From a virus, in the IMG/VR virus record IMGVR_UViG_3300047408_000298, positions 1-40,714 of that record: a stretch of DNA of 40,714 nt, one strand, 5' to 3'. The notes under the pieces were generated by a model. It saw only the letters and a list, made by a program, of their open reading frames with translations, had not been told where the DNA came from and did not search any database. The translations under genes and the position numbers were made by a program. Positions 2,674 to 19,913 of this stretch are shown one piece after another. Position 1 is the stretch's first letter; each line of letters starts with the position of its first letter.

Positions 2674-2747
2674 TTTTGGTGGAGAATTGGTGGTATAGCG
2701 GCTAAGCCGTTGAAATCATTAGGCTAGGCACTCCCTACACAAGGGAT
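2674..2747 (-). repeat. Composite att-like site A (core plus arms), inverted to site B
   Basis: On the plus strand 2731-2747 reads CTCCC-TACACAA-GGGAT, the shape of the tRNA anticodon stem-loop used as core in attP. On the other side, 2674-2693 holds two CCACCA-type arm motifs 11 bp apart. The core centre is 46 bp from the first arm motif. Read on the minus strand, this segment is about 85% identical by eye to 15945-16015 and shares core and arm pattern with attP at 39951-40025. It is intergenic, between the repressor gene and the early control region. Its role is unknown; an integrase-binding site is the most direct explanation. Confidence 0.65.
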
Positions 2748-7941: not shown

Positions 7942-8098
7942 ATGGAAAAGACCGCAGGCGGACAAAAAGCTCTTTCTCGCGGTCACGCGCGCCTATTGTG
8001 ACGCGATCGAACGCGGCGACATCGAGATGCCGGAACAGATCGCGGAATTGCCGCTCGGGCACGGCAAGTTCGTGCGGATGTTCGTGATTCAGGAATAG
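7942..8098 (+). pseudogene. Small early-type protein broken by a frameshift at an A5 run
   Basis: From ATG 7942 the frame reads MEKTAGGQK. After the A5 run at 7964-7968 the coherent protein continues in the +1 frame as LFLAVTRAYCDAIERGDIEM and on to GKFVRMFVIQE with TAG at 8096. Removing one A restores a single 51-residue helical protein. The frameshift may be a sequencing error, a true mutation, or programmed slippage on the A-run. Downstream residues look like real coding sequence and have no good start of their own. Confidence 0.5.
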
Positions 8099-8107
8099 CG
8101 GACCCCC

Positions 8108-8138
8108 TTGACAGAGTGGGGCGAACCGTGGCGCTCCT
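8108..8138 (+). promoter_or_regulatory. Promoter-like motif, copy 1 (TTGACAG-N13-GTGGCGCTCCT)
   Basis: TTGACAG at 8108-8114, exactly 13 bases, then GTGGCGCTCCT at 8128-8138. The same 18 fixed bases with the same spacing occur at 18525 and 38419. A hairpin with CTCC/GGAG stem follows at about 8140-8165. Unlike the other copies, this one has no convincing gene after it; a terminator stands about 65 bp further on. Confidence 0.65.
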
Positions 8139-8202
8139 GACCCTGCTCCCCTCGGAGTACAGGTGTCGCCCCAATTTTTCCCCTCCTCCCTAGATGCCTG
8201 TG

Positions 8203-8249
8203 GAAGGCCCCCGGAACTGGTTGCGCTTTTCAGGGGGCCTTCGTTTTTT
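8203..8249 (+). terminator. Strong rho-independent terminator after motif copy 1
   Basis: The stem GAAGGCCCCC (8203-8212) pairs with GGGGGCCTTC (8233-8242) around a 20-base loop and is followed by GTTTTTT. A transcript starting at the promoter-like motif at 8108-8138 would be roughly 100 nt long and end here, so the pair could encode a small RNA or form an attenuator. Confidence 0.85.
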
Positions 8250-8270
8250 CAGGTCAGATGATCTTCGACG

Positions 8271-8606
8271 TCATTGATCTATGGTGACGTGGCAAGGATT
8301 CGATCGCCCGCCGCACGGGCCGGCGTCATAGGGCACATATCGAGAGTCGCGCATAAACTTTTCGATGATCTTCTGCCGTTCGCTCTCGGGGAAAGGTGCA
8401 GGCGTGTATTCGGGCATAGGCTCGCCAAAACGCGGGTGCGGCATCCGCGGCACGGATTCGGGTTGTTCAAAGGTGCGCTCAGCAACAAATTCGCAGCATG
8501 TGGCGCGATATGGGGTGGCGTGCGGAGGTTTGGACGGGGTGAGCGCGGCGAAAACGACAAGCACAGGCAGGGCGGCGAGCACCATAACGATGATAACGAT
8601 ACGCAT
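8271..8606 (-). CDS. Small secreted or membrane-anchored protein, 111 aa
   Basis: The first 22 residues (MRIVIIVMVLAALPVLVVFA) form a signal peptide or membrane anchor; the rest is polar and proline-rich, with Cys pairs (ATCCEF, PCGGRSNPC) that could form disulphides in the periplasm. Residues about 39-54 (EFVAERTFEQPESVPR) closely match the N-terminus of the internal virion protein at 31630 (EFVSEQTFEQPDYVPR). The start ATG 8606 has AGGAG 7 nt upstream. No family recognised; a lysis, exclusion or envelope role is possible. It is convergent with the plus-strand terminator at 8203. Confidence 0.65.
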   Translation of the reverse strand: MRIVIIVMVLAALPVLVVFAALTPSKPPHATPYRATCCEFVAERTFEQPESVPRMPHPRFGEPMPEYTPAPFPESERQKIIEKFMRDSRYVPYDAGPCGGRSNPCHVTIDQ

Positions 8607-8733
8607 ACGGAAGACTCCTTAGAAAAGGAAAAGGGTGGCGGGTTGCGCGCCCCCCGCTCCTGTGTTAGCGGGTCTTGGTCTTGACCGTCTTGGCCGGATA
8701 GGACGGTTTCTTGTGAGCGCGTTGCGCCGGGCG

Positions 8734-8919
8734 TTATACTTTCTTGCTCAGGGCGAATTTAGCGTAGCTCAGGGCAGCATTGAACTTATGTGCCTGATCC
8801 ATGAGCGATGTCCCGCCATATTGCAGGTCAGAGATTTCCTGAAGGCAGAGCCTAAGACGATCAATCTCCCAGCGCAATTCGCGCTGCATGCAGTGATCGA
8901 CTAGGCAATTCTCAATCAC
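8734..8919 (-). CDS. Hypothetical protein, 61 aa
   Basis: A small helical protein with several Cys residues (MIENCLVDHCMQRELRWEID), starting at GTG 8919 with AGGAGG 10 nt upstream. After its TAA the same frame stays open for 22 more codons (8665-8733), giving a basic tail (AHKKPSYPAKTVKTKTR) that resembles the C-terminus of the HTH protein at 11941 (ARKKPSAPTKTAKG). This suggests a recombination remnant or a stop gained within a longer gene. Function unknown. Confidence 0.5.
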   Translation of the reverse strand: MIENCLVDHCMQRELRWEIDRLRLCLQEISDLQYGGTSLMDQAHKFNAALSYAKFALSKKV

Positions 8920-8933
8920 GGTCGGGGCGCCTC

Positions 8934-9377
8934 CTAGATAGTTCCCGGCTTCATCGCACCTGGCCGGGGCAGGCTTGAAAGTGGTGGTTGCGAAACACCA
9001 GCGCGATTCTGTCTCCCCACGGGGATTGGCTGCTGCGCGGCGGTTCCTAGGCCGCCACTTATCCTACACGCCGCATCGATAGCCGGATTGCCCGATGGAA
9101 GCGGCGACGCAAGGCTTCGTCCCGGATAGGGCGCAGCAATACCATTTTTGACCAAGGCGCGGACCTGGGCAATGGCCACATCAATCCACGGTTGGCCAGC
9201 TTGGCGTTGGGCGCGGAAATCCTTGAATGTGGATGGCCATTTGGTTCGAGATGATATCTCGGAATTGCCATAGCATTCCGTCATGCGCGCCTCGTGTAGG
9301 AGGCCACCGATCTGGAACAGGGTTTCGTCGCTAATCTCCACGGCGGGCATCCTCTGTCTATTCGCGCGGTGTGCCAT
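8934..9377 (-). CDS. Hypothetical protein, 147 aa
   Basis: No family recognised. The N-terminal 80 residues look folded (AVEISDETLFQIGGLLHEAR, then PWIDVAIAQVRALVKNG); the C-terminal 60 residues are low-complexity, rich in Pro, Ser and Gln. I chose ATG 9377 because it overlaps the stop of the Acb2/Tad1-like gene (TGATG); an upstream in-frame ATG at 9410 would lie inside that gene. The two genes are probably translated from one message. Confidence 0.55.
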   Translation of the reverse strand: MAHRANRQRMPAVEISDETLFQIGGLLHEARMTECYGNSEISSRTKWPSTFKDFRAQRQAGQPWIDVAIAQVRALVKNGIAAPYPGRSLASPLPSGNPAIDAACRISGGLGTAAQQPIPVGRQNRAGVSQPPLSSLPRPGAMKPGTI

Positions 9378-9574
9378 CAGGAAGCCGCGTGATGGCCACA
9401 TTTCGCCCACATGGCATTCGAGCGATGGGCGCGGATCACGAAGGTTTTGTCCGGGCCTTCGGGCAGCTCGGCATCGAGAATATCGTTGTAAGCCTTGGCC
9501 GCAGCGCGCACGCGGGCCATCTTGGCAATCTGATCTTCGGTCGGTTTCAGGTATTCATATGTCGAAGCGTGCAT
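9377..9574 (-). CDS. Acb2/Tad1-like hairpin-domain protein (candidate anti-defence)
   Basis: 65 residues in the pattern of the Acb2/Tad1 hairpin domain (DUF7681-type): a short polar start (YEYLKPTEDQIAKM), a first helix (ARVRAAAKAYNDILDAEL), the signature PEGPDKTFVIRAHRSNAMWA, and a short end. Acb2 and Tad1 proteins are phage sponges for cyclic nucleotide or cyclic ADP-ribose signals of CBASS and Thoeris defence. The assignment is from memory of the motif; many relatives are untested. The start ATG 9574 has GGAG 6 nt upstream; longer in-frame starts at 9586 and 9595 are possible. It is divergent from the gene at 9638. Confidence 0.55.
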   Translation of the reverse strand: MHASTYEYLKPTEDQIAKMARVRAAAKAYNDILDAELPEGPDKTFVIRAHRSNAMWAKCGHHAAS

Positions 9575-9600
9575 CTGTTTCTCCATGACTCTCATTGCCG

Positions 9601-9638
9601 TTGACACTACCGCCGATCTACTGGTAATGCAAGTGTCA
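9601..9638 (+). promoter_or_regulatory. Promoter with inverted repeat, probable leaderless start
   Basis: TTGACA at 9601-9606, 17 bp, then GTAATG at 9624-9629 as -10; the start codon at 9638 is only 8 bp further, so the message would be leaderless or nearly so. The arms TGACACT (9602-9608) and AGTGTCA (9632-9638) form a dyad spanning the promoter and could be an operator for a self-regulating protein. The region also separates the divergent gene starting at 9574. Confidence 0.6.
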
Positions 9639-10210
9639 TGGAGAAAGGTTTCTGCGCCGATATCCCGTTCCTTAAGGCGTCCGAGCAAGAAGCGGCGCTC
9701 GTAGGCGCTGGCGTGAAAGCTGTGGAAATCTATATCGATGGGCGCGGCGCGCAGAATTGGGACATGCTGCTCGTGGCGTTCAAGATGCGCCGCGATAAGG
9801 TCAAGCAACTCTCGATCTGGGGCACGCTCCGGGTTCTCGGTGACAGCCGCAAGCTAATCACGAGTCGGATCAAGGAGTTGCACGATGCCGGGATTGTCGT
9901 GATCGACCGCGAAAGCAAATTGCGCAGCGATAAGGACGGCGTGGCGATGCTCGACGCAGCCCAGGCCAAGATTCAGGGATCGGCCAAAGTCAGGAATGAC
10001 CGCAAGTTCGCCCAGAAGATTGCCGCCAAGGGCGGGAAGGGAAAGCTCGACTCCATGCGCAAGAAGCGGATGCCCGAAGAGATTGCGCGCCCTATATGGC
10101 AGTGTGAGAAGCTGACGGCCAAAGAGCGGATTGCGCTGCTCAACCCGCCCGGCTTCTTCGAAGGCAAGTGGACCGAGGCGAGCGCGTACCGCCATCTCGG
10201 CAAGAAATAG
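9638..10210 (+). CDS. Derived serine-resolvase-like protein without catalytic Ser
   Basis: 190 residues. The first 110 follow the strand/helix order of a resolvase N-terminal domain: ADIPFLKASEQEAALVGAG corresponds to ARVSTxxQxxxLxxAG, then VEIYIDGRG, then KQLSIWGTLRVLGDSRKLI like the VVWRLDRLGRS helix, then LHDAGIVVID. The catalytic Ser position reads as Pro/Phe, so recombinase activity is unlikely. A basic middle and a C-terminal HTH-like tail (KWTEASAYRHLGKK) suggest DNA binding. A dyad overlaps its promoter, which would suit an autoregulator. The family link is by eye. Confidence 0.55.
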   Translation: MEKGFCADIPFLKASEQEAALVGAGVKAVEIYIDGRGAQNWDMLLVAFKMRRDKVKQLSIWGTLRVLGDSRKLITSRIKELHDAGIVVIDRESKLRSDKDGVAMLDAAQAKIQGSAKVRNDRKFAQKIAAKGGKGKLDSMRKKRMPEEIARPIWQCEKLTAKERIALLNPPGFFEGKWTEASAYRHLGKK

Positions 10211-10222
10211 GAGACGAGCGCG

Positions 10223-10399
10223 ATGCTAGCTGCGCCGACATGTGCCTTCTGTGGTCGAGAAATCCCGCTAACAGAAATGGCGACCGAGTTCATGTGCGGT
10301 GATCGGCTGCAACATCTCAGTCTGTGCTGTGAGCGGTGCCGTCACATGGTGACCAAGGAGCCGCCGTTTCAACCAATCAGTGCTTCGGCAGAGAATTGA
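10223..10399 (+). CDS. Small zinc-finger-like protein, 58 aa
   Basis: Starts at ATG 10223 with GGAG upstream. The cysteines are spaced as two CxxC pairs (PTCAFCGREI and LCCERCRHM) with an additional Cys at FMCGD, consistent with one zinc ribbon. Function unknown; it is followed after 7 nt by the next gene in a tight operon of small genes that ends with the cytosine methyltransferase. Confidence 0.55.
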   Translation: MLAAPTCAFCGREIPLTEMATEFMCGDRLQHLSLCCERCRHMVTKEPPFQPISASAEN

Positions 10400-10406
10400 G
10401 GAGCAC

Positions 10407-10646
10407 ATGACCGACGCCGAAATTGCCGAGTTCTGCGGCTTCAAGCCGACCGACAATCAGGAAGCGGTCGCGCGCTACATCGCCGGGCTGTCACCGGCGC
10501 ATCGCGCTCTGTTCGACAGCATGAAGCAGGTCGAGATGTGGGACGCGACCGGCGGGCTCGTGCCGTTGCCGGAAGGCGTCATCCTCTGCGGGCCGAAACA
10601 GGTTCGAGCGGGGCGTCGTCGTGCCGTTGCTCGGAAGAAGGATTGA
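10407..10646 (+). CDS. Hypothetical protein, 79 aa
   Basis: A small protein with a helical N-terminal half (MTDAEIAEFCGFKPTDNQ, then ARYIAGLSPAHRALFD) and a basic C-terminus (RAGRRRAVARKKD). The start ATG 10407 has GAGGAG just upstream. No family recognised. It is second in the small-gene operon upstream of the methyltransferase. Confidence 0.55.
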   Translation: MTDAEIAEFCGFKPTDNQEAVARYIAGLSPAHRALFDSMKQVEMWDATGGLVPLPEGVILCGPKQVRAGRRRAVARKKD

Positions 10647-10654
10647 GGAGCGCC

Positions 10655-10834
10655 ATGAATTCACACGAGAAGATTATCGCTGGGGTCAAGGCGCTGTGTG
10701 ATCTGGAGCATGAAGACCTGTGCGCCTACCCAGATTGTACTTGCAGTCGAACGATGAGGGCCGAGTATCTTCAGAGCGCGAAGGCTGTGCTGCGGGCAAC
10801 CGATCCAATCAATGCCTTAGACTATAAGTGGTGA
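10655..10834 (+). CDS. Hypothetical Cys-containing protein, 59 aa
   Basis: Starts at ATG 10655 with GAGGAG upstream, 8 nt after the previous stop. It has three or four Cys in a short stretch (LCDLEHEDLCAYPDCTCS), possibly metal-binding, and a helical end. No family recognised. Confidence 0.5.
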   Translation: MNSHEKIIAGVKALCDLEHEDLCAYPDCTCSRTMRAEYLQSAKAVLRATDPINALDYKW

Positions 10835-10838
10835 GCAG

Positions 10839-11015
10839 ATGAAACTCGAAATCCGCTACCACAATGCGATGCCTGGGTGGGCGAAGCTTGTCGGCTTGAA
10901 AGTCAAAGCCATTCCCGAATGCGAGGGCGGCGGATTCATGATCGAGAAGGTGCAGGCTGAAAAGATCGTGGCCGCGCTTGAGAAGGCGTGGATGTATGAC
11001 GGCATATCCAAGTGA
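10839..11015 (+). CDS. Hypothetical protein, 58 aa
   Basis: A small alpha/beta protein (MKLEIRYHNAMPGWAKLVGL, then GGGFMIEKVQAEKIVAALEK) starting 4 nt after the previous stop and ending with a TGA that overlaps the methyltransferase ATG (TGATG at 11013-11017). The close packing supports translation. No family recognised. Confidence 0.5.
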   Translation: MKLEIRYHNAMPGWAKLVGLKVKAIPECEGGGFMIEKVQAEKIVAALEKAWMYDGISK

Positions 11016-11671
11016 TGAACCAGACAATGCCTCGCGCACTCGACCTCTTCTGCGGCGCCGGCGGAGCAGCAATGGGTCTACATCGCGCCGGGTTTACTGT
11101 CACTGGCGTCGATATCGAATATCAGCCCAACTATCCGTTCGAATTTATCAAGGGCGACGCTACCGATCTTCGTATTGAGTGGCGCCGGTATGACTTCATT
11201 TGGGCGAGCCCGCCATGCCAGGCTTACACGAACGCGCAACGCATCCGCGGGAATGAACACCCTGATTTTATCGCGAGCACACGAGAGTGGCTTCAGCGCA
11301 TTTGGTATGCGACTGGCGCTCCGTGGTGCATTGAAAATGTTGTCGGTGCGCCGCTGAACAATCCCATCCTTTTGTGCGGAACGATGTTCGGGCTTCGCAC
11401 CTATCGGCACCGCCTCTTCGAATGCAGCTTCCCAATCACAGCGCCGCAGCATGGGCCGCATATGGCGCGCAATCAGAAGATGGGCCGTCCTGTCAAAGAC
11501 GGCGAATACATGCACGTCGTCGGCAACTTCTCTGGCGCGCGTCTAGCGCGTGAAATCATGGGCATAGACTGGATGACACGCGACGAACTGCGCGAAGCTA
11601 TTCCGCCTGCCTATTCCGAATTCATTGGGCGCGCGGCGCTCAAACATTGCCGCAGTTCAATTGCGGCTTAG
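11015..11671 (+). CDS. Orphan C5 cytosine DNA methyltransferase
   Basis: 218 residues with the motif order of Dcm-type enzymes: motif I DLFCGAGGAAMGLHRAGF (SAM binding, 10-27), motif II GVDIEYQP, motif IV ASPPCQAYT with the catalytic Cys at 68, motif VI ENV (108-110), motif VIII RHRLFE, and a C-terminal IPPAYSEFIG like motifs IX/X. The target-recognition region is very short, as in compact phage enzymes. No restriction endonuclease is adjacent, so it probably protects phage DNA from host restriction or marks it for regulation. The start is ATG 11015; a GTG at 11012 would add one residue. Confidence 0.85.
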   Translation: MNQTMPRALDLFCGAGGAAMGLHRAGFTVTGVDIEYQPNYPFEFIKGDATDLRIEWRRYDFIWASPPCQAYTNAQRIRGNEHPDFIASTREWLQRIWYATGAPWCIENVVGAPLNNPILLCGTMFGLRTYRHRLFECSFPITAPQHGPHMARNQKMGRPVKDGEYMHVVGNFSGARLAREIMGIDWMTRDELREAIPPAYSEFIGRAALKHCRSSIAA

Positions 11672-11760
11672 TAGGGAAGACGAGCCGATGGGCGCCGACA
11701 AAGTATTTCGCATCCTCTGGCGCAGTTACCGAGATGCCGAACAGTGGCATTGGACATCGA

Positions 11761-11886
11761 CTAGCCGGAAGACCCGGCGAGCCCGGTTGGAAGCGCCGCA
11801 TAAAGCGCGTGTTCGAGGGTGTTTCCGATCCAAAGGACAACAAGCACTAGGCCGATAGTGGCGAGCACCATAAGAGTCGTTTTCAT
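11761..11886 (-). CDS. Tiny single-span membrane protein, 41 aa
   Basis: Reads MKTTLMVLATIGLVLVVLWI followed by a short amphipathic tail. One transmembrane helix occupies residues about 5-21. GGAG stands 8 nt upstream of ATG 11886. It is the last gene of the leftward small-gene operon. A holin or membrane-stress role is possible but not shown. A competing plus-strand frame over the same bases is less convincing. Confidence 0.55.
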   Translation of the reverse strand: MKTTLMVLATIGLVLVVLWIGNTLEHALYAALPTGLAGSSG

Positions 11887-11940
11887 TTCTGATACTCCAA
11901 AGGGAAAAAGGCGACGGCGTTTCTGTCGGGTTTATTTGGT

Positions 11941-12213
11941 CTACCCTTTGGCCGTCTTGGTCGGGGCGGACGGTTTCTTGCGAGCCGTTGCATGTTCACC
12001 GATCGGCGGCAGTCCGGCGGCGAGCGCGGCGCAGGCGAGCGCGACGGTGCGCGGAATAACGATGTCGGTTGTTTTCGCGGGGTCGCCGGCGACGGGTTTT
12101 TCGCCTGCCTCGTAAAGGATAATCATCCGGCGAGAGAGGCCAAGCGCCGCGGCGGCCGCGGTGTAGGAATATCCCATGGCCTTGCGCCAGGCGGCGAAAT
12201 CGCGCGCGGTCAT
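11941..12213 (-). CDS. HTH protein with basic tail, 90 aa
   Basis: The N-terminal 40 residues form an XRE-like HTH (FAAWRKAMGYSYTAAAAALG followed by LSRRMIILYEAGEKP). The C-terminus is basic (ARKKPSAPTKTAKG). It is coupled to the upstream HTH gene by ATGA overlap at 12210-12213, so the two regulators may act as a pair, perhaps a heteromer. DNA target unknown. Confidence 0.7.
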   Translation of the reverse strand: MTARDFAAWRKAMGYSYTAAAAALGLSRRMIILYEAGEKPVAGDPAKTTDIVIPRTVALACAALAAGLPPIGEHATARKKPSAPTKTAKG

Positions 12214-12443
12214 GGGCGGGCGCTTTCAAGCTCCAAAGCGAGGGCGAGAAGCTTGTCGCCGCGGGCGCGCGCGAGCGCGGCAATCTCGAGCCATATGCCA
12301 GCCGGAATGGGATAAGAACCGGCCGCCCAACGCTGCAAGGTGCGCAAGGCGATGCCCAATTCGCGCGCAAGTTCGGATTGCCAGAGAGGCCCAAAAAGGG
12401 CCTCGCCGGCATGGCGCAGGGTGTCAGAGTCGCGGGCCTTCAT
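12210..12443 (-). CDS. HTH regulator, 77 aa
   Basis: Residues about 15-50 match the phage-type HTH seen in small regulators (GPLWQSELARELGIALRTLQ followed by RWAAGSYPIPAGIW). It starts at ATG 12443; the upstream sequence holds a shortened copy of the repeated leader (CCGCATCACTC). The stop overlaps the start of the next HTH gene. Probably a transcription regulator of the early region. Confidence 0.7.
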   Translation of the reverse strand: MKARDSDTLRHAGEALFGPLWQSELARELGIALRTLQRWAAGSYPIPAGIWLEIAALARARGDKLLALALELESARP

Positions 12444-12545
12444 CGGGCGCCTTTTTTTCTGAGTGATGCGGATGGCGCAGACTTACGCCATGGGGAAGCC
12501 GTGGCGCAAGGGTGCGACATGGGCCGCACCCTTGCGCTCTCGCGT

Positions 12546-13160
12546 TCAATGTCCCCAGCCGGATGCTGTTCTTGACGCGGCGTCGCCGATCACGACGCCG
12601 GCGACACGCTGTCCCCATGGCGACGCGGTGCGCACGTTGTCAATTCTGATGCGGTCTTGAATCAATCTGCGGATCGGTAGCCCGCGGTCGTCGCCGTCAT
12701 AGCGCGGGCTTAAGAACGCGCCGGATTGGGGCACGCAGCGCTCTGTGCCGTAGCCATTGTCAACGCCGGCGCTTTGAATCTCGCGTAGGATGGCATGTTT
12801 GCCCTTGATTTCAGTTACTTCAAAAAATTCCACGTTGGTTTGATCGTATCCCCAACAGGTCCGGTAGATGTCGCCGACCTTGGCTGTATGGACAAACGAT
12901 TTGCGCTTTTCGCGGGATTCGGTGCGATAGGTTTCACGCGCGCGTACATTTTGGAAGTAATCGCGCACCGCATTTTCGCGGCTAAGCTCGTTTCTGTATG
13001 TGTAATGAAAGGCCGGTTTGTCTGCCTTGCCAGCAAACGCAACGCAGCCAAGCCGGCCCTTGGCTGTCGTGTAAAGATAAGCAACTGCGGTAGAGAGTTT
13101 GTCAGCCACTTTCACGGCGCCCTTCGGAATGTAAAACTCGCGAGGAAATCGGTTTTTCAT
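12546..13160 (-). CDS. Conserved phage/plasmid protein of unknown function, 204 aa
   Basis: Belongs by eye to a conserved family seen in phages and plasmids of Proteobacteria. The N-terminal part has a basic/aromatic stretch (NRFPREFYIPKGAVKVADKL, then KADKPAFHYTYRN). A charged helix follows (RETYRTESREKRKSFVH), and then a small beta barrel typical of the family (VGDIYRTCWGYDQTNVEFFE, then GKHAILREI). No catalytic motif is visible. The start overlaps the preceding 68-aa gene's stop (ATGA), implying coupling. Confidence 0.65.
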   Translation of the reverse strand: MKNRFPREFYIPKGAVKVADKLSTAVAYLYTTAKGRLGCVAFAGKADKPAFHYTYRNELSRENAVRDYFQNVRARETYRTESREKRKSFVHTAKVGDIYRTCWGYDQTNVEFFEVTEIKGKHAILREIQSAGVDNGYGTERCVPQSGAFLSPRYDGDDRGLPIRRLIQDRIRIDNVRTASPWGQRVAGVVIGDAASRTASGWGH

Positions 13161-13363
13161 GCGGCACCTGTCAGAATATCAACATACTTGCGCAGACCGG
13201 CGGCGAGGGCCGCATCATCCGCGCCGGCGGTTATTAGGGCCTCGCCTGCTTTCCAAACCTTGGGCAAGTCCATAATGGGAATCTGGATATTGCAGCACGT
13301 CGCTTTGAACGCGCGATTTATGCGAGCATCCGTTTCGCGTTCGGTCTTCGTCTTTTTGGCCAT
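13157..13363 (-). CDS. Hypothetical protein, 68 aa
   Basis: A small basic-then-helical protein (MAKKTKTERETDARINRAFK, then KVWKAGEALITAGADDAAL). ATG 13363 stands directly after leader repeat R1, whose AAGGAG provides the ribosome-binding site; longer readings of the frame would be inside the leader. It ends in ATGA overlap with the 204-aa gene. No family recognised. Confidence 0.6.
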   Translation of the reverse strand: MAKKTKTERETDARINRAFKATCCNIQIPIMDLPKVWKAGEALITAGADDAALAAGLRKYVDILTGAA

Positions 13364-13459
13364 GTTCGGACTCCTTTCCGAGTGATGCGGTCTTGACCGC
13401 GTGGCGCAGGATTGCACCGGAAGGGGCGCCGATTGGGATCGGCGCCCTAACCGCTGAAA
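13361..13459 (-). repeat. Leader repeat R1 (upstream of 68-aa gene)
   Basis: On the minus strand: TTTCAGCGGTTA, a GGCGCCGAT/ATCGGCGCC hairpin, GGTGCAATCCTGCGCC, the dyad GCGGTC-AA-GACCGC, CATCACTCGG, then AAGGAG and the ATG. It starts at the previous gene's stop, so it acts as intergenic hairpin plus translation start signal. Confidence 0.8.
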
Positions 13460-14140
13460 TCAGGCGGCGACTTTTTGCTGTTCTTGCGCCTTGGGTTCCT
13501 GAATCCAATCCGGCGCGCCATTCCATGCTGGCGCGTCAATGCGCCTAGGCATCAGGATTCCAAAAGCTCGCTCCATGTTGGGGCGGCTAAACGTGACGGC
13601 GTGGGGATCTCCAAACGCCGCGTGGTTGATATGGGAATCGCCCAATGCCATCAGCTTCGCGAAGGTGCCGAAGACTGCGACTAGAGCGGGATCGAATTGC
13701 GAGGGAACGCCGTCCCAAGTTTTCGTTTTCTTGTCGTAATTGCCGATACCGGCGGGCTTGCATGGCACGACGCGGCGCCAATCCGGAAAAGATCCGTCAA
13801 CGGGGACAAAGACGGATTCGCCGAGAATGAATTGCAGCGGTGCCAATTGGCGCAGTTCGGCGATATCGCCGGCCGCCCGATCTTTGCCCTTGATCTTGAG
13901 GCTCTTAATCGTGGCATTGGGCACAATCCAATTCCCGACTAGGCGCGGTGCGGCGCCGGGCTCTAGCGCGGGCAATTCTTCTTGAGCGCACAAAAGGACA
14001 TGGCCGTTTGTCGCAACATAGGTGACGTGCGACTCGCGACATTCAATCCAAACGCCGTTTAGGTAATAGCGCGTTTCTTCTGTGCTGGCGGCCAAAGCAA
14101 CGGCCTTCAGAGTGCGGAGATTGATCTGTGTCGTGTTCAT
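13460..14140 (-). CDS. DNA sliding-clamp-like protein (DnaN-related, two domains)
   Basis: 226 residues that follow the pattern of the second and third domains of DNA polymerase III beta: RYYLNGVWIECRESHVTYVA-TNGHVLLCAQEE (the usual ATDGHRLA strand), NWIVPNATIKSLK, the loop DGSFPDWRRVVP, and near the end AFGILMPRRID like the conserved MPMR strand. DnaN has three domains of about 120 residues and dimerises; a two-domain protein would need three subunits to make a six-domain ring, as PCNA and T4 gp45 do. It could recruit the host polymerase to phage forks. The start ATG 14140 follows leader repeat R2. Homology is by eye. Confidence 0.7.
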   Translation of the reverse strand: MNTTQINLRTLKAVALAASTEETRYYLNGVWIECRESHVTYVATNGHVLLCAQEELPALEPGAAPRLVGNWIVPNATIKSLKIKGKDRAAGDIAELRQLAPLQFILGESVFVPVDGSFPDWRRVVPCKPAGIGNYDKKTKTWDGVPSQFDPALVAVFGTFAKLMALGDSHINHAAFGDPHAVTFSRPNMERAFGILMPRRIDAPAWNGAPDWIQEPKAQEQQKVAA

Positions 14141-14235
14141 GTTCGGACCTTTCCGAGTGATGCGGTCTTGACCGCGTGGCGCAAGATTGCACCGGAAGAG
14201 GCGCCGATCGGCATCGGCGCCCTAACCGCTGAAAT
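14138..14235 (-). repeat. Leader repeat R2 (upstream of clamp-like gene)
   Basis: Nearly identical to R1 over about 95 bp, including the GGCGCCGAT hairpin, the GCGGTCAAGACCGC dyad and CATCACTCGGAAAGG. The ribosome-binding site is slightly shorter (AAAGGT instead of AAAGGAGT), which may lower translation of the clamp-like protein. Confidence 0.8.
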
Positions 14236-14700
14236 CTATTGCGCCGCTATTGCCGGCGCGGATTGCGCTTTGGCCGCTTTGGCTTCCGTTGCCTCTGTCA
14301 CGGCCGCTTGGAAGAGCCGGCAAAGATTCGCGATATCGTCCAGATCGGCGTGCACGTTGTCGCCGTATCCGTCGCAAGCTTCGGACCAGACTCCATCCGG
14401 ATCATCGCGCCCCATGAGTTCAACGGCCGCGTGCAATTTCCAGCGCTTGCATAGGCCGGCCATCGCATGGAGCTCCTTTTTGTAAGCGGCCATTGCGGGC
14501 TTATCGGCCATATACGCGTCCAAGGACTCTTGCGCGCGCTTGAAAGCTTCGGCCGGATCAAAGCCGGCCTTGCAGCTCGCGTAAAGTTTCCACCCGAATC
14601 CCGCGTTGCGCAGGATCTTGCCGTCGCTCATGTAGCGCTTGGCTGACGTGGTTAAGTAAATCGTGCCGATTTCTTGGCCGTGACATTTAAGCTTTGCCAT
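14236..14700 (-). CDS. Hypothetical protein, 154 aa
   Basis: No family recognised. The N-terminus is a small beta region (MAKLKCHGQEIGTIYLTTSA, then GFGWKLYASCKAGFDPAEAF). A long helical segment follows (LCKRWKLHAAVELMGRDDPD, then DDIANLCRLFQAAV), and an Ala/Lys tail. ATG 14700 is directly behind leader repeat R3, which has a strong AAGGAG; upstream codons in this frame belong to the leader and the neighbouring gene. It precedes the clamp-like gene in the leftward operon. Confidence 0.6.
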   Translation of the reverse strand: MAKLKCHGQEIGTIYLTTSAKRYMSDGKILRNAGFGWKLYASCKAGFDPAEAFKRAQESLDAYMADKPAMAAYKKELHAMAGLCKRWKLHAAVELMGRDDPDGVWSEACDGYGDNVHADLDDIANLCRLFQAAVTEATEAKAAKAQSAPAIAAQ

Positions 14701-14790
14701 ATTCGGACTCCTTTCCGAGTGATGCGGTCTTGACCGCGTTCCAACTGTATATGATGCAATGATTTCACTAGGGTATGTGGCAGAACGCCG
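14698..14790 (-). repeat. Leader repeat R3 with promoter-sized upstream block
   Basis: The proximal 45 bp match R1 (GCGGTCAAGACCGC, CATCACTCGG, AAAGGAGTCCGA). The distal part instead carries a block of about 50 bp shared only with R5 (TGCCACATA, CTAGTGAAATCATT, TATACAG). That block is a candidate promoter, which would make R3 and R5 transcription starts and R1, R2 and R4 internal leaders. Confidence 0.75.
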
Positions 14791-14800
14791 CATTAAAAAA

Positions 14801-14995
14801 TCAGTATCCAAGCCAGCGCAAAACATGCGCCGCGTCAAAAGTATTAAAGCCGATCCCCGACCCTTTGTTGTCCGCTTCAAATTCTTCCCAGGTTGCATCG
14901 TGCTCAATTACGATCCGCATTGCCGCGGTGCGCGTAATCATGATCGGTTCGTCGCAATCGCTGGCGTCAAATGCTTCTTCGGCTGTGAATTGCAT
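14801..14995 (-). CDS. Hypothetical acidic protein, 64 aa
   Basis: A small acidic protein (MQFTAEEAFDASDCDEPIMI, then IEHDATWEEFEADN) that ends AAHVLRWLGY. The start ATG 14995 has AAGGG upstream in leader R4, which lacks the usual CCGCATCACTCGG part. Acidic, possibly DNA-mimic character is noted, but the evidence for that is weak. No family recognised. Confidence 0.55.
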   Translation of the reverse strand: MQFTAEEAFDASDCDEPIMITRTAAMRIVIEHDATWEEFEADNKGSGIGFNTFDAAHVLRWLGY

Positions 14996-15075
14996 AAAGG
15001 TTGTCCCTTTCGTTTTGGCGCAAGATTGCACCGGAAGAGGCGCCGATTTCTGAATCGGCGCCCTAACCGCTGAAA
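14993..15075 (-). repeat. Leader repeat R4 (distal half only)
   Basis: Carries the TTTCAGCGGTTA start, the GGCGCCGAT/ATCGGCGCC hairpin and GGTGCAATCTTGCGCC as in R1 and R2, but the ATG-proximal part is replaced by an unrelated AAAGGGACAACCTTT stretch. It therefore marks the breakpoint within the repeat where cassettes were joined. Confidence 0.75.
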
Positions 15076-15336
15076 TCAGGACTCCCGCGTGAAATGAAAC
15101 TTGCCGCCGGTTTCGTAGTTGATCCGGATCAATAGACCTCGCGAGGTCTTCCACGTGTCGCCACGTGACGGCCGAACTGCGTCCACCATGCGTCCCGTCT
15201 GATGCATCCAACGGCCAAGCTCAAATGCTTCCCAAGAACGAGACGAAGCAAGGTAAGGATTCGGCGCGGAAATGCCGGCGTTGTATCCATTGCGAAAAGT
15301 TTCCTGAAGTTGGGCATTGATCTGTCTCGTAGTCAT
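15076..15336 (-). CDS. Hypothetical protein, 86 aa
   Basis: The first gene of the leftward cassette array, reading MTTRQINAQLQETFRNGYNA at the start and ending with a beta-rich segment (LLIRINYETGGKFHFTRES). ATG 15336 lies immediately after leader repeat R5 with AAGGAGT. The C-terminal part resembles small phage proteins with VxPSRGDTWKT-type strands, but I cannot name a family. Confidence 0.55.
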   Translation of the reverse strand: MTTRQINAQLQETFRNGYNAGISAPNPYLASSRSWEAFELGRWMHQTGRMVDAVRPSRGDTWKTSRGLLIRINYETGGKFHFTRES

Positions 15337-15426
15337 TTTTCGGACTCCTTCCGAGTGATGCGGTCTTGACCGCGTGGCAACTGTGTATGGTGGAATGATT
15401 TCACTAGCATATGTGGCAGAACGCCG
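15334..15426 (-). repeat. Leader repeat R5 (start of the cassette array)
   Basis: The proximal part is as in R1, and the distal block of about 50 bp is shared with R3. It is the first leader of the leftward array and probably contains its main promoter; TACACA aligned with TATACA of R3 is a candidate -10. Confidence 0.75.
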
Positions 15427-15478
15427 CACGGTCGAGCAGGCTCCGGCTCGAGCACGGTCGAGCAGGCTCCGGCTCGTG
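15427..15478. repeat. 26-bp tandem repeat, two copies
   Basis: The unit begins CACGGTCGAGCAGGCTCCGG and repeats at 15453 with 25 of 26 bases identical by eye. The unit contains the dyad CGAGC...GCTCG. It lies between the cassette array promoter and the iteron region and could be part of the origin or a binding site. Confidence 0.75.
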
Positions 15479-15568
15479 TTCTGTTGCGTTTGCCCCGACC
15501 CCTGCCGATGATGACAAGAGCGCACGCGAGGCGCCTTGCGTTGTGCGGGTCCGGGTCTGTGCAGCGCC

Positions 15569-15832
15569 GTTGCACGGGCCGTTGCACAGCTAATGCATTG
15601 ATATTGCTACGAAAAGAGCGAATTTATGACGCTGTGCAACTGTGCAACGGGCGAACACGTGCGCATGTGTGCGCAGGCGAGGGCGCGCGCGCATGTGCGC
15701 GAGGATCGCGTTGCACAGTTGCACAGCGAGCGGGTCAGATAAGATAAGATATTGATATGTCTCAAGTAATTCTATTCTAAGGCTGTGCAACGGCTGTGCA
15801 ACGGCTGTGCAACGGCTGTGCAACTGTGCAAC
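15569..15832. other. Iteron-type replication origin (putative)
   Basis: Eleven copies of the 9-mer GTTGCACAG or its complement CTGTGCAAC (one with a mismatch): 15569, 15581, 15632, 15640, 15710, 15718, 15783, 15794, 15805, 15816 and 15824. The last block has an 11-bp period. Between them lies an AT-rich stretch (GATAAGATAAGATATTGATA, about 15737-15757) that could unwind. No gene is convincing in 15337-16195. Iterons plus an AT-rich element next to a replication module are typical of origins; which protein binds is unknown. Confidence 0.7.
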
Positions 15833-15944
15833 GCAATTTGCCGGATCGGATTATTTCAGGGACATTTTACTGGCTAGGGCGCGCGCTTGCCGGAGCGGTC
15901 GGCGCGGTCCGGATCTGGCGAATCTCTATGTCCAGCTTGATGTT

Positions 15945-16015
15945 CTCCCTTGTGTAGGGAGTGCCTTGCTCAATGAAATCAACGGCTTAGCCGATACTCC
16001 ACCAAATCTCCACCG
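15945..16015 (+). repeat. Composite att-like site B, inverted relative to site A
   Basis: Core-like hairpin CTCCC-TTGTGTA-GGGAG at 15945-15961, then TCAACGGCTTAGCCG at 15978-15992, then two CCACC arm motifs at 15999 and 16010 (11 bp apart). The distance from core centre to first arm is 46 bp, as in site A; attP has 47. The loop sequence equals that of site A but differs from attP. It lies between the origin and the terminase genes. Its function is not known. Confidence 0.65.
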
Positions 16016-16195
16016 ATCGGGCGCTCGAATCGCGCCAGGTCCGCGCCGGCGCGCGCGCGCTCGAGGGGGGGGGTACCCCCGGTTTCGGCCGCCGCGATCC
16101 GCCATGACCTCTGTCACCGAGTGGTAGTGGAGGTTGTGGAGTTTTCGCAAAAATGCGAATCCAGAATCCCAAACCCAAAGGGTCGGGGATTTTGC

Positions 16196-16846
16196 ATGAC
16201 TCAGCGCAAACCGCCGCTTGCCGGCGCGAGGAAAGGCGGGCGGGTGAAGTCGACGAGCGGCGAAAAGGCCGCGCTCAAGCTCGCGCTCGAAATGGCGCCG
16301 CCGCCCGAACCGCTCGATGAGGACGCGAACCAGATCGATTGGGTCGATGAGTTGATCGGCCCCGGTTCACACGGCGCCGCGGTCAAGGACATCCGCGCCC
16401 GGATTGGCCGCCCGCCCGGCGCACGCAACAAGCGCACCGTCGAGTTCGCGGAATATCTGCTGAACAAATACACCTCGCCCGCAGAGGGGCTGTTGCAGAT
16501 CGCGGCCATGTCGATTGAGGAACTGGTTGCCGCGACAGGATGCACGAGGCTCGAGGCGTTGCAAGAGAAGCGGCTGTCGATGATCCCGCTCTTGCCCTAT
16601 CTGCACAGCAAAATGCCGGTTTCCATCGACATCACAAATCGCAAGGTGATCTACTTGCACATCGGGGGCGAGCTCACCGGGGCCGCGCCGCCATCTCCCG
16701 AACCCGAAAATCTGATCGGCGTCGGCCTCACCGCAACCGTGATCGAGGGCACCGCGAATGCGTCAAGAACTGAAGCTCCAATGGTTGCCGCCGGGGCCGG
16801 TGGCGCAGGGGTTCATGTTCGCGAAGAAACGGGTTCAGATCATTAA
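16196..16846 (+). CDS. Terminase small subunit (putative)
   Basis: 216 residues directly before and overlapping the large terminase by 89 nt. The N-terminus is basic and flexible (TQRKPPLAGARKGGRVKSTS). The middle contains IRARIGRPPGARNKRTVEFA, a sequence seen in small terminases and other DNA-binding phage proteins, followed by helices (AEYLLNKYTSPAEGLLQIAA, EKRLSMIPLLPYLH). It should recognise the packaging site and load the large subunit. The start ATG 16196 was chosen for GGGGA upstream; a longer reading from 16121 is less likely. Homology is partial, so the call rests on position as well. Confidence 0.7.
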   Translation: MTQRKPPLAGARKGGRVKSTSGEKAALKLALEMAPPPEPLDEDANQIDWVDELIGPGSHGAAVKDIRARIGRPPGARNKRTVEFAEYLLNKYTSPAEGLLQIAAMSIEELVAATGCTRLEALQEKRLSMIPLLPYLHSKMPVSIDITNRKVIYLHIGGELTGAAPPSPEPENLIGVGLTATVIEGTANASRTEAPMVAAGAGGAGVHVREETGSDH

Positions 16847-18224
16847 CGGGCCGGTCGGCTCCGGAAAAACCACCGCCTGCTGCATGAAATCGATCCTCTA
16901 CGCCTCGCGCCAGCGCACCAGCAATCAGGACAACAAGACGCGCAAGACCAAGGTCTGCATCGTGCGCGACACCTATCGCCAGCTTTGGAAGACGACACTG
17001 CCCTCGTGGTGGAAGCGCATCCCGAAAGACGCGGGAGAATTTCAGGGCTCGACGGACGGTCCCGCCACGCACCGAATCCAATTCGAGCTCGAGGACAGAA
17101 CGATTTGCGATTTGCAGATGGATTTCATCGCCATCGGCGAGAACAACGTCGAGGACGTGATGCGCGGCTATGAGCCGACGCTGTGGTATCTGAACGAAGC
17201 CGATCTGCTGTCACGCGAAGTCTACACCTTCGCGAAGGGCCGGTGGGGCCGGTATCCCGACATGAGCGAGGGCGGCCCGTCATGGTGGGGCATCCTGATG
17301 GATTGCAACGCGCCCGAACTGACAAGCTGGCTGTATACGGAGATTTTCAGGAACACGCCCGATGATGTCGAGCTTTTCCGCCAGCCGGGCGGCTTGGAGC
17401 CGGGGGCGGAGAATCTGCATAATCTGCCTGCGGATTATTACATCGATCAGGCGAAGGGGCAGCCGGTCTGGTACATCAAGCGGATGATCGACAATGCGCC
17501 GGGCTTCTCCCGCGCCGGCAAGCCGATCTATCCGGAATATCAGGACACGATCCACGTCTCGAAAGTGCCGCTCGCGTTTGCGCCCTGGCGCAAGCTCATC
17601 ATCGGGCTCGATGCGGGCCTATCGCCGGCGGCGGCGTTTTTGCAGCGGATGCCCAATGGGCAATGGCGCTGCCTGCGTGAGATTGCGACGGTTGCGGGGA
17701 CGGGACCGATCCGCTTCGGCCAATTGCTCGCGCTCACGCTGAAGGAGAATTACCCGAACCTCGATGCGCAGAAGATCCTCTGCTATGCCGATCCCTCGGC
17801 GCAGCACGGCAACGACAAGGACGATGGCGAAATGTCGTGGATCGAAATCGTGTCGTTTCATGCGGGCATCACGATCCTGCCTGCGCCCACCAATGCGCTG
17901 ATCCCGCGTCTCGAAGCGGTGCGCAAGCCGCTGATGAACCTGATCGACGGCGAACCCGCCTTTCTGCTCGATCCCAATCTGTGTCCGGTGCTGCGCGAAG
18001 GGTTCAACAGCGGCTATCGCTACAAGAAGCTGCCGCTCGTGGACATCGAACGCTATTCGGAGGAACCGGAGAAGACGCCGCATAGCCATCCGCACGATGC
18101 GCTGCAATACGCCATGAGTGCCGAAGGCGAGGATCTGGAAATCCGCGGCCGCCATGCGAGCGAAGCGCAGCGCACGGCGTCGGCAACCCACGTGCATGAT
18201 TGGGACCCGTTCGCGATGTCGTGA
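16758..18224 (+). CDS. terL: Terminase large subunit (ATPase-nuclease)
   Basis: 488 residues. The ATPase domain has Walker A GPVGSGKT at 31-38 and a Walker B-like strand TLWYLNEADL at about 141-150. The RNase H-like nuclease has acidic residues in IIGLDAG (Asp 285), CYADPSA (Asp 345) and HPHDALQY (Asp 447). It pumps and cuts phage DNA at the procapsid portal. The start ATG 16758 gives the usual LKLQWLPPGPVAQGFM opening of the podoviral/prophage relatives. It is preceded by the small subunit and followed by a small zinc-type gene. Confidence 0.95.
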   Translation: MRQELKLQWLPPGPVAQGFMFAKKRVQIINGPVGSGKTTACCMKSILYASRQRTSNQDNKTRKTKVCIVRDTYRQLWKTTLPSWWKRIPKDAGEFQGSTDGPATHRIQFELEDRTICDLQMDFIAIGENNVEDVMRGYEPTLWYLNEADLLSREVYTFAKGRWGRYPDMSEGGPSWWGILMDCNAPELTSWLYTEIFRNTPDDVELFRQPGGLEPGAENLHNLPADYYIDQAKGQPVWYIKRMIDNAPGFSRAGKPIYPEYQDTIHVSKVPLAFAPWRKLIIGLDAGLSPAAAFLQRMPNGQWRCLREIATVAGTGPIRFGQLLALTLKENYPNLDAQKILCYADPSAQHGNDKDDGEMSWIEIVSFHAGITILPAPTNALIPRLEAVRKPLMNLIDGEPAFLLDPNLCPVLREGFNSGYRYKKLPLVDIERYSEEPEKTPHSHPHDALQYAMSAEGEDLEIRGRHASEAQRTASATHVHDWDPFAMS

Positions 18225-18232
18225 ATGATGAG

Positions 18233-18484
18233 ATGATCGGCAAAGTCTTGCAGCTTTTGCGGCGGAAGATCGAAGGCGCCGTGCATGGCGCTGCTCTCGA
18301 GCAGGAGGAATGGCGGCGCGACTGCGCCCCGCGCGAGGGCGTGGTGTGGAAAATCGAAACGACATCGGACGGCAAGAGCATCCTGTTCCAACCGTGCGGG
18401 ATGCGAAGCTTTCATCCGAAGGACATCGAACATCTGTATTGCGGCCGGTGTCATAGGTTCTTCGGGAGGAAATTAGGGGGATGA
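18233..18484 (+). CDS. Small protein with CxxC motif, 83 aa
   Basis: A helical N-terminus (MIGKVLQLLRRKIEGAVHGA), a central two-strand region, and a C-terminal IEHLYCGRCHRFFGRK with CxxC. A GTG at 18221 overlapping the terminase stop (GTGA) would add four residues; I prefer ATG 18233, but either is possible. The end resembles the Com-type regulators that carry a zinc-binding CxxC near a conserved aromatic, but only part of that motif is seen. Confidence 0.5.
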   Translation: MIGKVLQLLRRKIEGAVHGAALEQEEWRRDCAPREGVVWKIETTSDGKSILFQPCGMRSFHPKDIEHLYCGRCHRFFGRKLGG

Positions 18485-18524
18485 CGCGGCGAATCACCCT
18501 GGTTCCATCTTTGTTCCGTGGAAC

Positions 18525-18590
18525 TTGACAGTGATGTGACCTTTGTGGCGCTCCTAGGGCGGGTGATCCCCTCCGTGTGGAGAACACCCC
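18525..18590 (+). promoter_or_regulatory. Promoter-like motif copy 2 with SD-containing hairpin
   Basis: TTGACAG (18525-18531), 13 bases, GTGGCGCTCCT (18545-18555). Downstream GGGTG pairs with CACCC and CTCC with GGAG, so the Shine-Dalgarno GGAG of the gene at 18591 is inside the hairpin. This would be the start of the virion transcript. GTTCC/GGAAC just upstream (about 18513-18524) could be a binding site. Confidence 0.7.
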
Positions 18591-18878
18591 ATGCCCCAAC
18601 TCGGCTTCCCGATCGTTTACCGCGTGCCGCCTGAGCGCCAGATGCTCACGAAAAAGCACGACAAAACCGAAGTGCGAGGCTCGGCCTTTCACCCCGAACT
18701 GACGGATTTCGCGGGGCTCGTCGTGCGCGTGTGCGACGTTGGCCGGTACGACATCGTGATCTTCCCGCCGAACCGGGCGCCGGCGACGGTCAATGATGTG
18801 CCGGAAGAAGAACTCGAAGATCCTTCCGAAACCGCGTTTGAAGCCGCGCAAAACTCGGGCGACCGCAAGAAGGCGTGA
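18591..18878 (+). CDS. Hypothetical protein, 95 aa, first gene of virion transcript
   Basis: Starts at ATG 18591 right behind the promoter-like motif copy 2. The first 70 residues look beta-rich (MPQLGFPIVYRVPPERQMLT, then GLVVRVCDVGRYDIVIFPPN); the tail is acidic (PEEELEDPSETAFE). No family recognised. Its placement before portal and capsid genes suggests a minor structural or assembly role. Confidence 0.6.
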   Translation: MPQLGFPIVYRVPPERQMLTKKHDKTEVRGSAFHPELTDFAGLVVRVCDVGRYDIVIFPPNRAPATVNDVPEEELEDPSETAFEAAQNSGDRKKA

Positions 18879-18880
18879 CC

Positions 18881-19105
18881 ATGCCCGGATGGGATGCAAC
18901 GCGGCGCTGCGGCAATTGCCTCGCCTTCACGGAGGCGCCGCCGATCGTGGTCCGCAAAGGCGAAACCGAAGAGGCGGCCCGCACGCGGTTCATCAACGCC
19001 GGGCAGGCGTTGCCGAAGGGAACGTGCCGGCTGTTCCCGAAACCGGAGCCGAAGGCTGACGACGACTGGTGCACGGCGCATGAGAGCGATGAGGGGCACG
19101 GATGA
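18881..19105 (+). CDS. Small Cys-rich protein, 74 aa
   Basis: Four Cys are arranged as RRCGNCLAF, GTCRLFP and DDWCTAH, suggesting a zinc-binding knuckle. I chose ATG 18881, which has AAGAAGG at a good distance; a GTG at 18875 overlaps the preceding stop. Similar small Cys proteins precede portal genes in alphaproteobacterial podoviral prophages, function unknown. Confidence 0.6.
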   Translation: MPGWDATRRCGNCLAFTEAPPIVVRKGETEEAARTRFINAGQALPKGTCRLFPKPEPKADDDWCTAHESDEGHG

Positions 19106-19434
19106 GCGACGAGATGGGGACACGCATCAAGGCGACAGGTCAAAACGCCCATCAGGAAGGCGGCAGCGATACGCGCTCGCATACCCGCGATGCCGGGATG
19201 AGCAAGCGCGTGCAGGTATCGCTCACCTTCACCGCCGCCACTGGGCGCGTCACCGGCGCCAACGGCACATTCGCAAACTTCGTGCCGCAAGACCCGGTGC
19301 TGATCCAGGGCACGAATCTCAACAACGGGGCGTTTGAAATCGTTAGCACCGATGCGGTGAACGCCGCGTTCCTAAGACTCGATCCTCCGCCCAAGGATGA
19401 AGGCCCGATTGTCTGCATCGTGCGGACGCCGTGA
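19102..19434 (+). CDS. Hypothetical structural-type protein, 110 aa
   Basis: Overlaps the previous gene by 4 nt. After a polar N-terminal 30 residues the rest is a beta-sandwich-like sequence (QVSLTFTAATGRVTGANGTF, then DPVLIQGTNLNNGAFEIVST), a pattern I associate with small phage virion or fibre-associated proteins. No family assignment is possible. Confidence 0.6.
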   Translation: MSDEMGTRIKATGQNAHQEGGSDTRSHTRDAGMSKRVQVSLTFTAATGRVTGANGTFANFVPQDPVLIQGTNLNNGAFEIVSTDAVNAAFLRLDPPPKDEGPIVCIVRTP

Positions 19435-19437
19435 GCC

Positions 19438-19689
19438 ATGAGCGCTGCCCCAAATCCGTTCTACGACGTGCGCTCGGATCTCTACCGTTATGCGCCGGGC
19501 GTCGTGCCCACGCACGAAACCGACGATGCGCTGTGGGCGCAATACGCCGCCAACGGGTACACGCCGTTGACGCAGGCGCAGGTGCTCGCGATCACGGGAC
19601 CGCCGCCGCCCTTTCCGCCCTCGATGAAGCGCTTCGCGGACAGCAATCCGTGTCCGCGCGACAATTGGGCGATCGACAACCGCCCATGA
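19438..19689 (+). CDS. Hypothetical proline-rich protein, 83 aa
   Basis: A short protein (PFYDVRSDLYRYAPGVVPTH, then a PPPPFPPS run) that starts 4 nt after the previous stop and whose stop overlaps the next ATG (ATGA at 19686). It looks partly disordered. Function unknown; it is in the portal-proximal cluster of small genes. Confidence 0.55.
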   Translation: MSAAPNPFYDVRSDLYRYAPGVVPTHETDDALWAQYAANGYTPLTQAQVLAITGPPPPFPPSMKRFADSNPCPRDNWAIDNRP

Positions 19690-19913
19690 GCTTCATGTCG
19701 CCAAGCCGCGCCGCCACCCAAACGTTGGCGGCCCCCGCCGCCAGCCCGGTGCCGTCGCCGCCTTCCGTCACGGACAAGGATGTGCAGGCCGCGGGCGATG
19801 CGGCGCGCGCCTCTGCGGCGGCAGCGGCAGGGCGTGTCTCGACCATCCTGACCTCGGGCATGGGGGCGAGCGATTATCTCGGCTCGCGCAAGAAAACGCT
19901 GCTCGGTGCGTGA
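19686..19913 (+). CDS. Hypothetical Ala-rich protein, 75 aa
   Basis: A low-complexity Ala/Ser/Pro N-terminus and a C-terminal GMGASDYLGSRKKTLLGA. The ending with a TSGxGxxxx-KTLLG motif is common in small proteins preceding podoviral portal genes in prophages. The start overlaps the previous gene, and the stop overlaps the portal start (TGATG). Confidence 0.6.
   Translation: MSFMSPSRAATQTLAAPAASPVPSPPSVTDKDVQAAGDAARASAAAAAGRVSTILTSGMGASDYLGSRKKTLLGA

Follow-up and report, generated by a model that had tools for sequence, protein, structure and literature searches.

Leaders of a viral gene array combine three repeated modules, with cassette joints at module edges

Introduction

The early genes of phage T7 have RNase III sites between them, and in T4-like phages a promoter early stem-loop (PeSL) pairs an early promoter with a terminator stem-loop. 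As cited in PMC4503421, PeSLs, as repeated intergenic regulatory units, have been proposed to mediate gene shuffling (Arbiol 2010, Comeau 2014). In cluster K mycobacteriophages, the start-associated sequence (SAS), a 13-bp sequence (GGGATAGGAGCCC) with symmetric ends around AGGAG, is a phage-wide repeat that marks the ribosome-binding sites of numerous small non-structural genes and varies in sequence between subclusters; about half have an upstream inverted repeat (ESAS), for which RNA pairing was found to be unsupported (PMC3203893). In an Agrobacterium prophage, hammerhead ribozymes around ardA, in a triple array, cut polycistronic phage RNA (PMC3088659).

Here we analyze a gene array on the IMG/VR viral record IMGVR_UViG_3300047408_000298; the whole 40,714-nt (40.7-kb) stretch is referred to as the window. 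The leaders of this array are combinations of three reusable modules, P (promoter-like), H (a long hairpin) and D (which carries the Shine-Dalgarno sequence, SD). Their layout is closest to the cluster K SAS/ESAS, with T4 PeSLs and prophage hammerhead arrays also among the most similar systems. As the SAS ends surround AGGAG, so UCGGA-AAGGAG-UCCGA in the window is symmetric around the SD, and the repeat likewise occurs in a single orientation, only upstream of non-structural gene starts (four D modules and leader R0, all minus strand). Unlike the SAS, D ends in UCGGAAAGGAGUCCGA, which lies outside the 13-bp consensus even with two mismatches allowed; judged by eye, the two have just the AGGAG core and the symmetric layout in common. 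The window also differs from SAS/ESAS in adding H at the preceding stop codon. H resembles the T7 RNase III sites in being a long imperfect hairpin, interrupted by internal loops, that stands between genes in a podovirus operon (cleavage being putative here), while its copies, unlike the T7 sites, are almost letter-for-letter repeats accompanied by D. As with PeSLs, the leaders are repeated intergenic units between exchanged genes; unlike PeSLs, most have no promoter-like sequence (P is in 2 of 6) and H has no U-tract, so that the combination of promoter and terminator is absent. The Agrobacterium array (PMC3088659) likewise has repeated RNA elements between phage genes, and hammerheads fill the corresponding slot in loci L144, L201, L032 and L179; the window leaders differ in having neither a hammerhead core nor an Rfam match.

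Results and Discussion

Array layout and genes

The array lies on the minus strand of the window, which encodes a T7-type head-tail adaptor, and is best explained as a leftward operon within a mosaic part of a podovirus genome. All of its genes and leaders are on this strand, and gene order runs from right to left.

15076..15336 (-): 86-aa gene behind leader R5, ATG at 15336-15334; no family assigned
14801..14995 (-): 64-aa gene behind R4, with its own ribosome-binding region; 88% nucleotide identity to its orthologue in a sister phage
14236..14700 (-): 154-aa MAK-family gene behind R3; conserved in 25 viral loci
13460..14140 (-): 226-aa sliding-clamp-like gene behind R2; DNA polymerase III beta, PF02767
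13157..13363 (-): 68-aa gene behind R1; ATGA overlap with the next start
12546..13160 (-): 204-aa gene, phrog_37844; hundreds of viral relatives
12210..12443 (-): 77-aa HTH gene, YdaS-like, behind R0
11941..12213 (-): 90-aa HTH gene; retained in the sister phage (87% nucleotide identity over 203 bp)

“MAK” is a name given here, from the first residues of the 154-aa protein. The genes behind R1 to R5 start at 13363, 14140, 14700, 14995 and 15336; an initial annotation of this DNA had quoted the low end of each ATG. PHROGs places the 226-aa gene (13460-14140) with RusA-like resolvases (phrog_3007), while Pfam and most tblastn matches place it with the DNA polymerase III beta clamp. A megablast search of window positions 8000-18000 against a phage collection returned no match, and a profile built from the MAK alignment had none in genome contigs.

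Leader modules

P is a block of ~48 bp with the near-palindrome TGAAAT-N-ATTNCA, present at the array head (R5) and before the MAK gene (R3). There are exactly two copies in the window, two in the sister phage and none in the other compared loci (nhmmer, 4.5e-14), confirming the upstream block that R3 and R5 had been noted to share. H (~60 bp; R4, R2 and R1) is a long imperfect hairpin of ~20 interrupted base pairs, which begins at the stop codon of the upstream gene in 3/3 window copies and also in the sister. D (~40 bp; R5, R3, R2 and R1) is made up of a hairpin of 5 bp, CATCACTCGG and a further small hairpin that contains the SD; in 4/4 copies, 10-12 nt separate the dyad core from the ATG. 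H and D occur together only in R1 and R2. Most array genes are bracketed D-gene-H, the exception being R4, where a different ribosome-binding region follows H.

15381..15429 (-): module P in R5, at the array head (nhmmer)
15334..15375 (-): module D in R5; hairpin GCGGU-CAAG-ACCGC, linker, SD in UCGGA/UCCGA loop
15016..15078 (-): module H in R4, starting with the upstream gene's TGA stop; orthologous H in the sister
14745..14793 (-): module P in R3
14698..14739 (-): module D in R3
14177..14237 (-): module H in R2, opening at a TAG stop
14138..14177 (-): module D in R2, SD loop 2 nt shorter
13402..13462 (-): module H in R1, opening at a TGA stop
13361..13402 (-): module D in R1
12504..12537 (-): H-like 15-bp hairpin 3' of the 204-aa gene stop, arms unrelated to H
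12458..12491 (-): R0, a D remnant; its 8-bp hairpin has new arms and is accompanied by CCGCATCACTCAGA

The recurrence of near-identical leaders is real and far beyond chance: the 23-mer GCGGTCAAGACCGCATCACTCGG, the core of D, has four exact copies, all on the minus strand, vs. 0 in 100 shuffles. R1 and R2 are 96% identical over 89 bp, and R3 and R5 are 91% identical over 80 bp. The initial annotation had credited R1 to R5 with one common set of features. R1 and R2 do carry the GGCGCC hairpin, the dyad, CATCACTCGG and the SD; R3 and R5 have no GGCGCC hairpin, and the AAGGAG described for all leaders is AAGG in R2, has one A fewer before GGAG in R5 and is absent from R4. R4 is indeed a half leader, retaining only the hairpin half that adjoins the upstream gene, without the dyad, CATCACTCGG or AAGGAG. 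The short copy reported before the gene at 12443 (R0) is recognizable by CCGCATCACTCRGA (0 expected in simulated sequence), but the hairpin preceding it has arms ATGGCG..CGCCAT vs. GCGGT..ACCGC in D. A uniform translational control, as first proposed, is not supported, given that R4 and R0 have other ribosome-binding regions. Exact searches of viral and genome collections with the leaders returned no match, and the window leaders belong to no Rfam family.

The high identity within the R1/R2 and R3/R5 pairs, and the absence of copies from other collections, would be expected if the repeats were functionless debris of recent duplication or mobile palindromic elements, alike only through recent copying. 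We find this very unlikely: D is identical over 23 bp in its four copies although the adjacent bases differ, the stems hold in comparison with the sister phage, and structured repeated leaders recur in independent arrays and hardly at all in array-less terminase relatives (see below).

Predicted folding and signals

Folded as coding-strand RNA, R1, R2, R4 and R0 have z-scores of about -4, with 0 of 200 shuffles as stable; the whole R3 and R5 leaders fold no better than chance, D hairpins aside. Four array genes (86-aa, MAK, clamp and 204-aa) have a strong hairpin (about -31 to -35 kcal/mol in 58 nt) that starts at the stop codon or no more than ~10 nt from it; the stop codons of the other array genes have no such hairpin. 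In D, the SD is in the loop of UCGGA/UCCGA, the arms of which are invariant, with loops of 6, 4, 6 and 5 nt in R1, R2, R3 and R5, respectively. No sigma70-like promoter was recognized in the array.

H, placed directly after stop codons and this stable, could be read as an intrinsic terminator (attenuator) without a U-tract, with P, at the array head and before MAK, serving as restart promoter, so that the leaders set a gradient of transcription. This is quite unlikely. H is followed by CTCTTCCGG or CCCTTCCGG, neither of which has a T-run, so it lacks one of the two parts (GC stem and T-run) of an intrinsic terminator; a terminator scan found 7 terminator-like sites, with no excess over shuffles and none at H. 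The genes behind R1 and R2 would also need a promoter of their own, yet these leaders are without P.

Comparison with a sister phage

The sole close relative compared, which we call the sister, is IMG/VR 3300045242_000195 (G001; loci L025, L204 and L205). Its DNA is 94% identical to the window over 15383-20137, and the terminases are 97% identical. A covariance model built from R1, R2 and R4 has one strong match outside the window, at L025 5647-5724 (46 bits, E 1e-7), where H stands upstream of the orthologue of the 64-aa gene. Between window and sister the flanks of H are conserved and the stem has two compensatory changes (G-C to A-U and C-G to G-C), while no compensatory changes were found among the H copies within the window. 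Because the sister has H before the same 64-aa gene, the H-only leader R4 is a state common to both phages and not a swapped half.

P stands at the array head in both phages. Homology then stops at window position 15383, near the P|D border of R5; beyond P, the sister has its own hairpin, D' (ATGCCATGTTGGCGCATGGCAC), followed by a gene that, from inspection by eye, we take to be ArdC-like and that replaces the 86-aa gene. Homology restarts at the TGA stop codon (15078) that opens H. The two phages have unrelated MAK leaders, with P+D in the window and a leader of the D' type in the sister, and the MAK genes share only 69% DNA identity. D' thus occupies, in the sister, both places where the window has P+D; its two copies agree in the loop and differ by two compensatory pairs, and this count, like most compensation counts here, is over two copies. 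The sister has no clamp, 68-aa or 204-aa gene at this location, and instead carries a second P, a 25-aa frame and the 90-aa HTH gene.

The breaks in homology, which fall near the P|D border and at stop codons, coincide with differences in the genes and thus support cassette replacement at leader borders. Judged from the two sequences, gene cassettes have evidently been replaced with joints at module edges, the hairpins being kept or exchanged for other hairpins. The proposal that cassettes are swapped at leader borders is thereby borne out at two cassette positions, while the R4 leader stayed with its gene. The mechanism put forward with it, homologous recombination within the repeated leaders, is not: no breakpoint inside identical H or D stretches was seen in the window-sister comparison, and module copying with illegitimate exchange fits the joints as well as homologous recombination does. 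This sister pair resolves joints of phage mosaicism to single bases and places them at the borders of structured RNA modules.

The same comparison bears on whether the modules work as RNA or as DNA. P, D and H could be operators for a repressor, e.g., the HTH proteins at the array end, in a dispersed stoperator-like system in which the dyads are protein-binding palindromes and translation is uninvolved. D and P do contain near-palindromes, two HTH genes close the array, and the ESAS repeats of cluster K are thought to be protein sites (PMC3203893). We nevertheless consider operators unlikely, as D always has one orientation and a fixed distance from the ATG, the array has no sigma70-like promoter, the H arms change with compensation instead of keeping their sequence, and the sister has a different hairpin in place of D despite retaining the 90-aa HTH gene. 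In changing with compensation relative to the sister, the window stems differ from the ESAS repeats, and the evidence leans towards RNA pairing. A further point for operators comes from two other loci, L047 (-328, 672) and L058 (-2746, -1047; positions relative to the 204-aa homologue), with repeated promoter-like sequences in which an AGGGC..GCCCT palindrome fills a 16-18-nt spacer between TTGACA/TTGCAC-like and TATATT-like hexamers. These palindromic spacers suggest common operators; the two families, which resemble promoters whose spacer holds a palindrome, were treated separately from the leaders with RNA hairpins.

Related arrays and hammerhead ribozymes

The MAK family is found in 25 viral loci, and the MAK-clamp order recurs in several phages. 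In 17 of 47 dereplicated clamp (DnaN) loci, a leader recurs at another place in its contig with a similarity that exceeds a 1% null for leaders of one contig. At a stricter cut-off, nine terminase-related loci have almost no repeated leaders, and only the sister record among the nine has the array. Leaders of clamp genes fold more stably than control leaders (median z -1.61 vs. -0.15, p = 4e-6), while MAK leaders differ weakly from controls (p = 0.011).

In L023, L028, L195 and L198 the leader flanks are kept and the whole inner stem is exchanged. Pooled over all pairs of cousin leaders, compensated double changes amount to 45% vs. 32-41% in slid controls; this excess is modest, and because it is only slightly above the controls we do not claim it as proof of pairing. 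The closely related phages of L017, L019, L035 and L036 keep orthologous leaders with their genes in fixed order, and therefore exchange is not constant. The expectation that relatives would gain and lose cassettes at leader borders thus agrees with the sister, where genes are replaced there, and not with these four loci.

Two candidate matches were put aside. A DNA match of R1 in record G006 (L203) was judged coincidental, being short and with no array nearby, and a weak covariance-model match in L048 (22 bits, E 0.03), upstream of the 204-aa homologue, includes several non-standard pairs and was left aside. Separate leader families were also observed: those of L023, L155 and L195 share YAGURYUCGACY, a freely varying hairpin and RGGGCGCGYAUUG, are repeated within each contig and belong to no Rfam family; those of L125 and L135, located before the clamp gene or a neighbor of it, have the flanks in CACTGGCG-hairpin-CGCTATCAT in common.

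A motif scan of 2.27 Mb detected 15 type II hammerheads, and shuffled sequence gave 0; each of the 15 lies 0-41 nt before a predicted start, on the strand of the gene. Three are in L144 and two in L201, with others in L032, L141/L150/L152/L165, L156-L158 and L179; coordinates of representatives are as follows.

L144 4121-4174, 4424-4475 and 4894-4945: hammerheads
L201 4146-4199 and 4382-4433: hammerheads
L032 6373-6424: hammerhead
L179 4907-4967: hammerhead
L141 8187-8238: hammerhead
L156 4754-4807: hammerhead

The Rfam model scores L179 and one L201 copy above its cut-off and two L144 copies just below; most matches are below. The contigs are viral, with a clamp or MAK array and at most three hammerheads each, and the stems are fully changed between copies. 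In the window, the motif scan found no type II hammerhead (RF02276: CUGAUGA plus GAAA core, stems I-III); Rfam gave no match in the window at gathering score and no ribozyme in the array at E≤10.

Proposed function of the modules

We favor, with a probability of about 0.5, a reading in which the leaders are reusable spacer modules, with H as an RNA processing or protecting stem, D as an insulator that presents the ribosome-binding site, and the genes as exchangeable cassettes. The modules would act in RNA. As a stem between cistrons, H would separate neighboring messages by being processed (as an RNase III-type site) or by protecting 3' ends, and D would insulate and present the ribosome-binding site; any gene between D and H would then be expressed independently of its neighbors, so that cassettes could be exchanged without disturbing them. 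The near-identity of modules within one genome would result from copying within that genome, and joints at module edges may arise by recombination there, or survive because the genes are left intact.

It is also conceivable, though a long way from probable, that H and D together form a type of RNA element between cistrons that has not been described before and may be processed or self-processed, in the slot that hammerheads occupy in the cousin arrays. If true, phages of this group keep a “cassette socket”, the RNA part of which is homogenized within a genome and replaced wholesale between genomes. For the widespread MAK/clamp array in general, we predict that mRNA is processed at the leader slot, given that each lineage fills it with its own repeated hairpins or with ribozymes.

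Other repeats in the window

Window positions 2678-2746 and ~15942-16010, ~13 kb apart, are inverted near-copies of each other (ggcactccctacacaaggg / cccttgtgtagggagtgcc plus flanks), possibly an att-related or replication site. The divergent intergenic region before the array (15560-15840) contains CTGTGCAACG as direct and inverted repeats, which could be iterons of an origin or operator.
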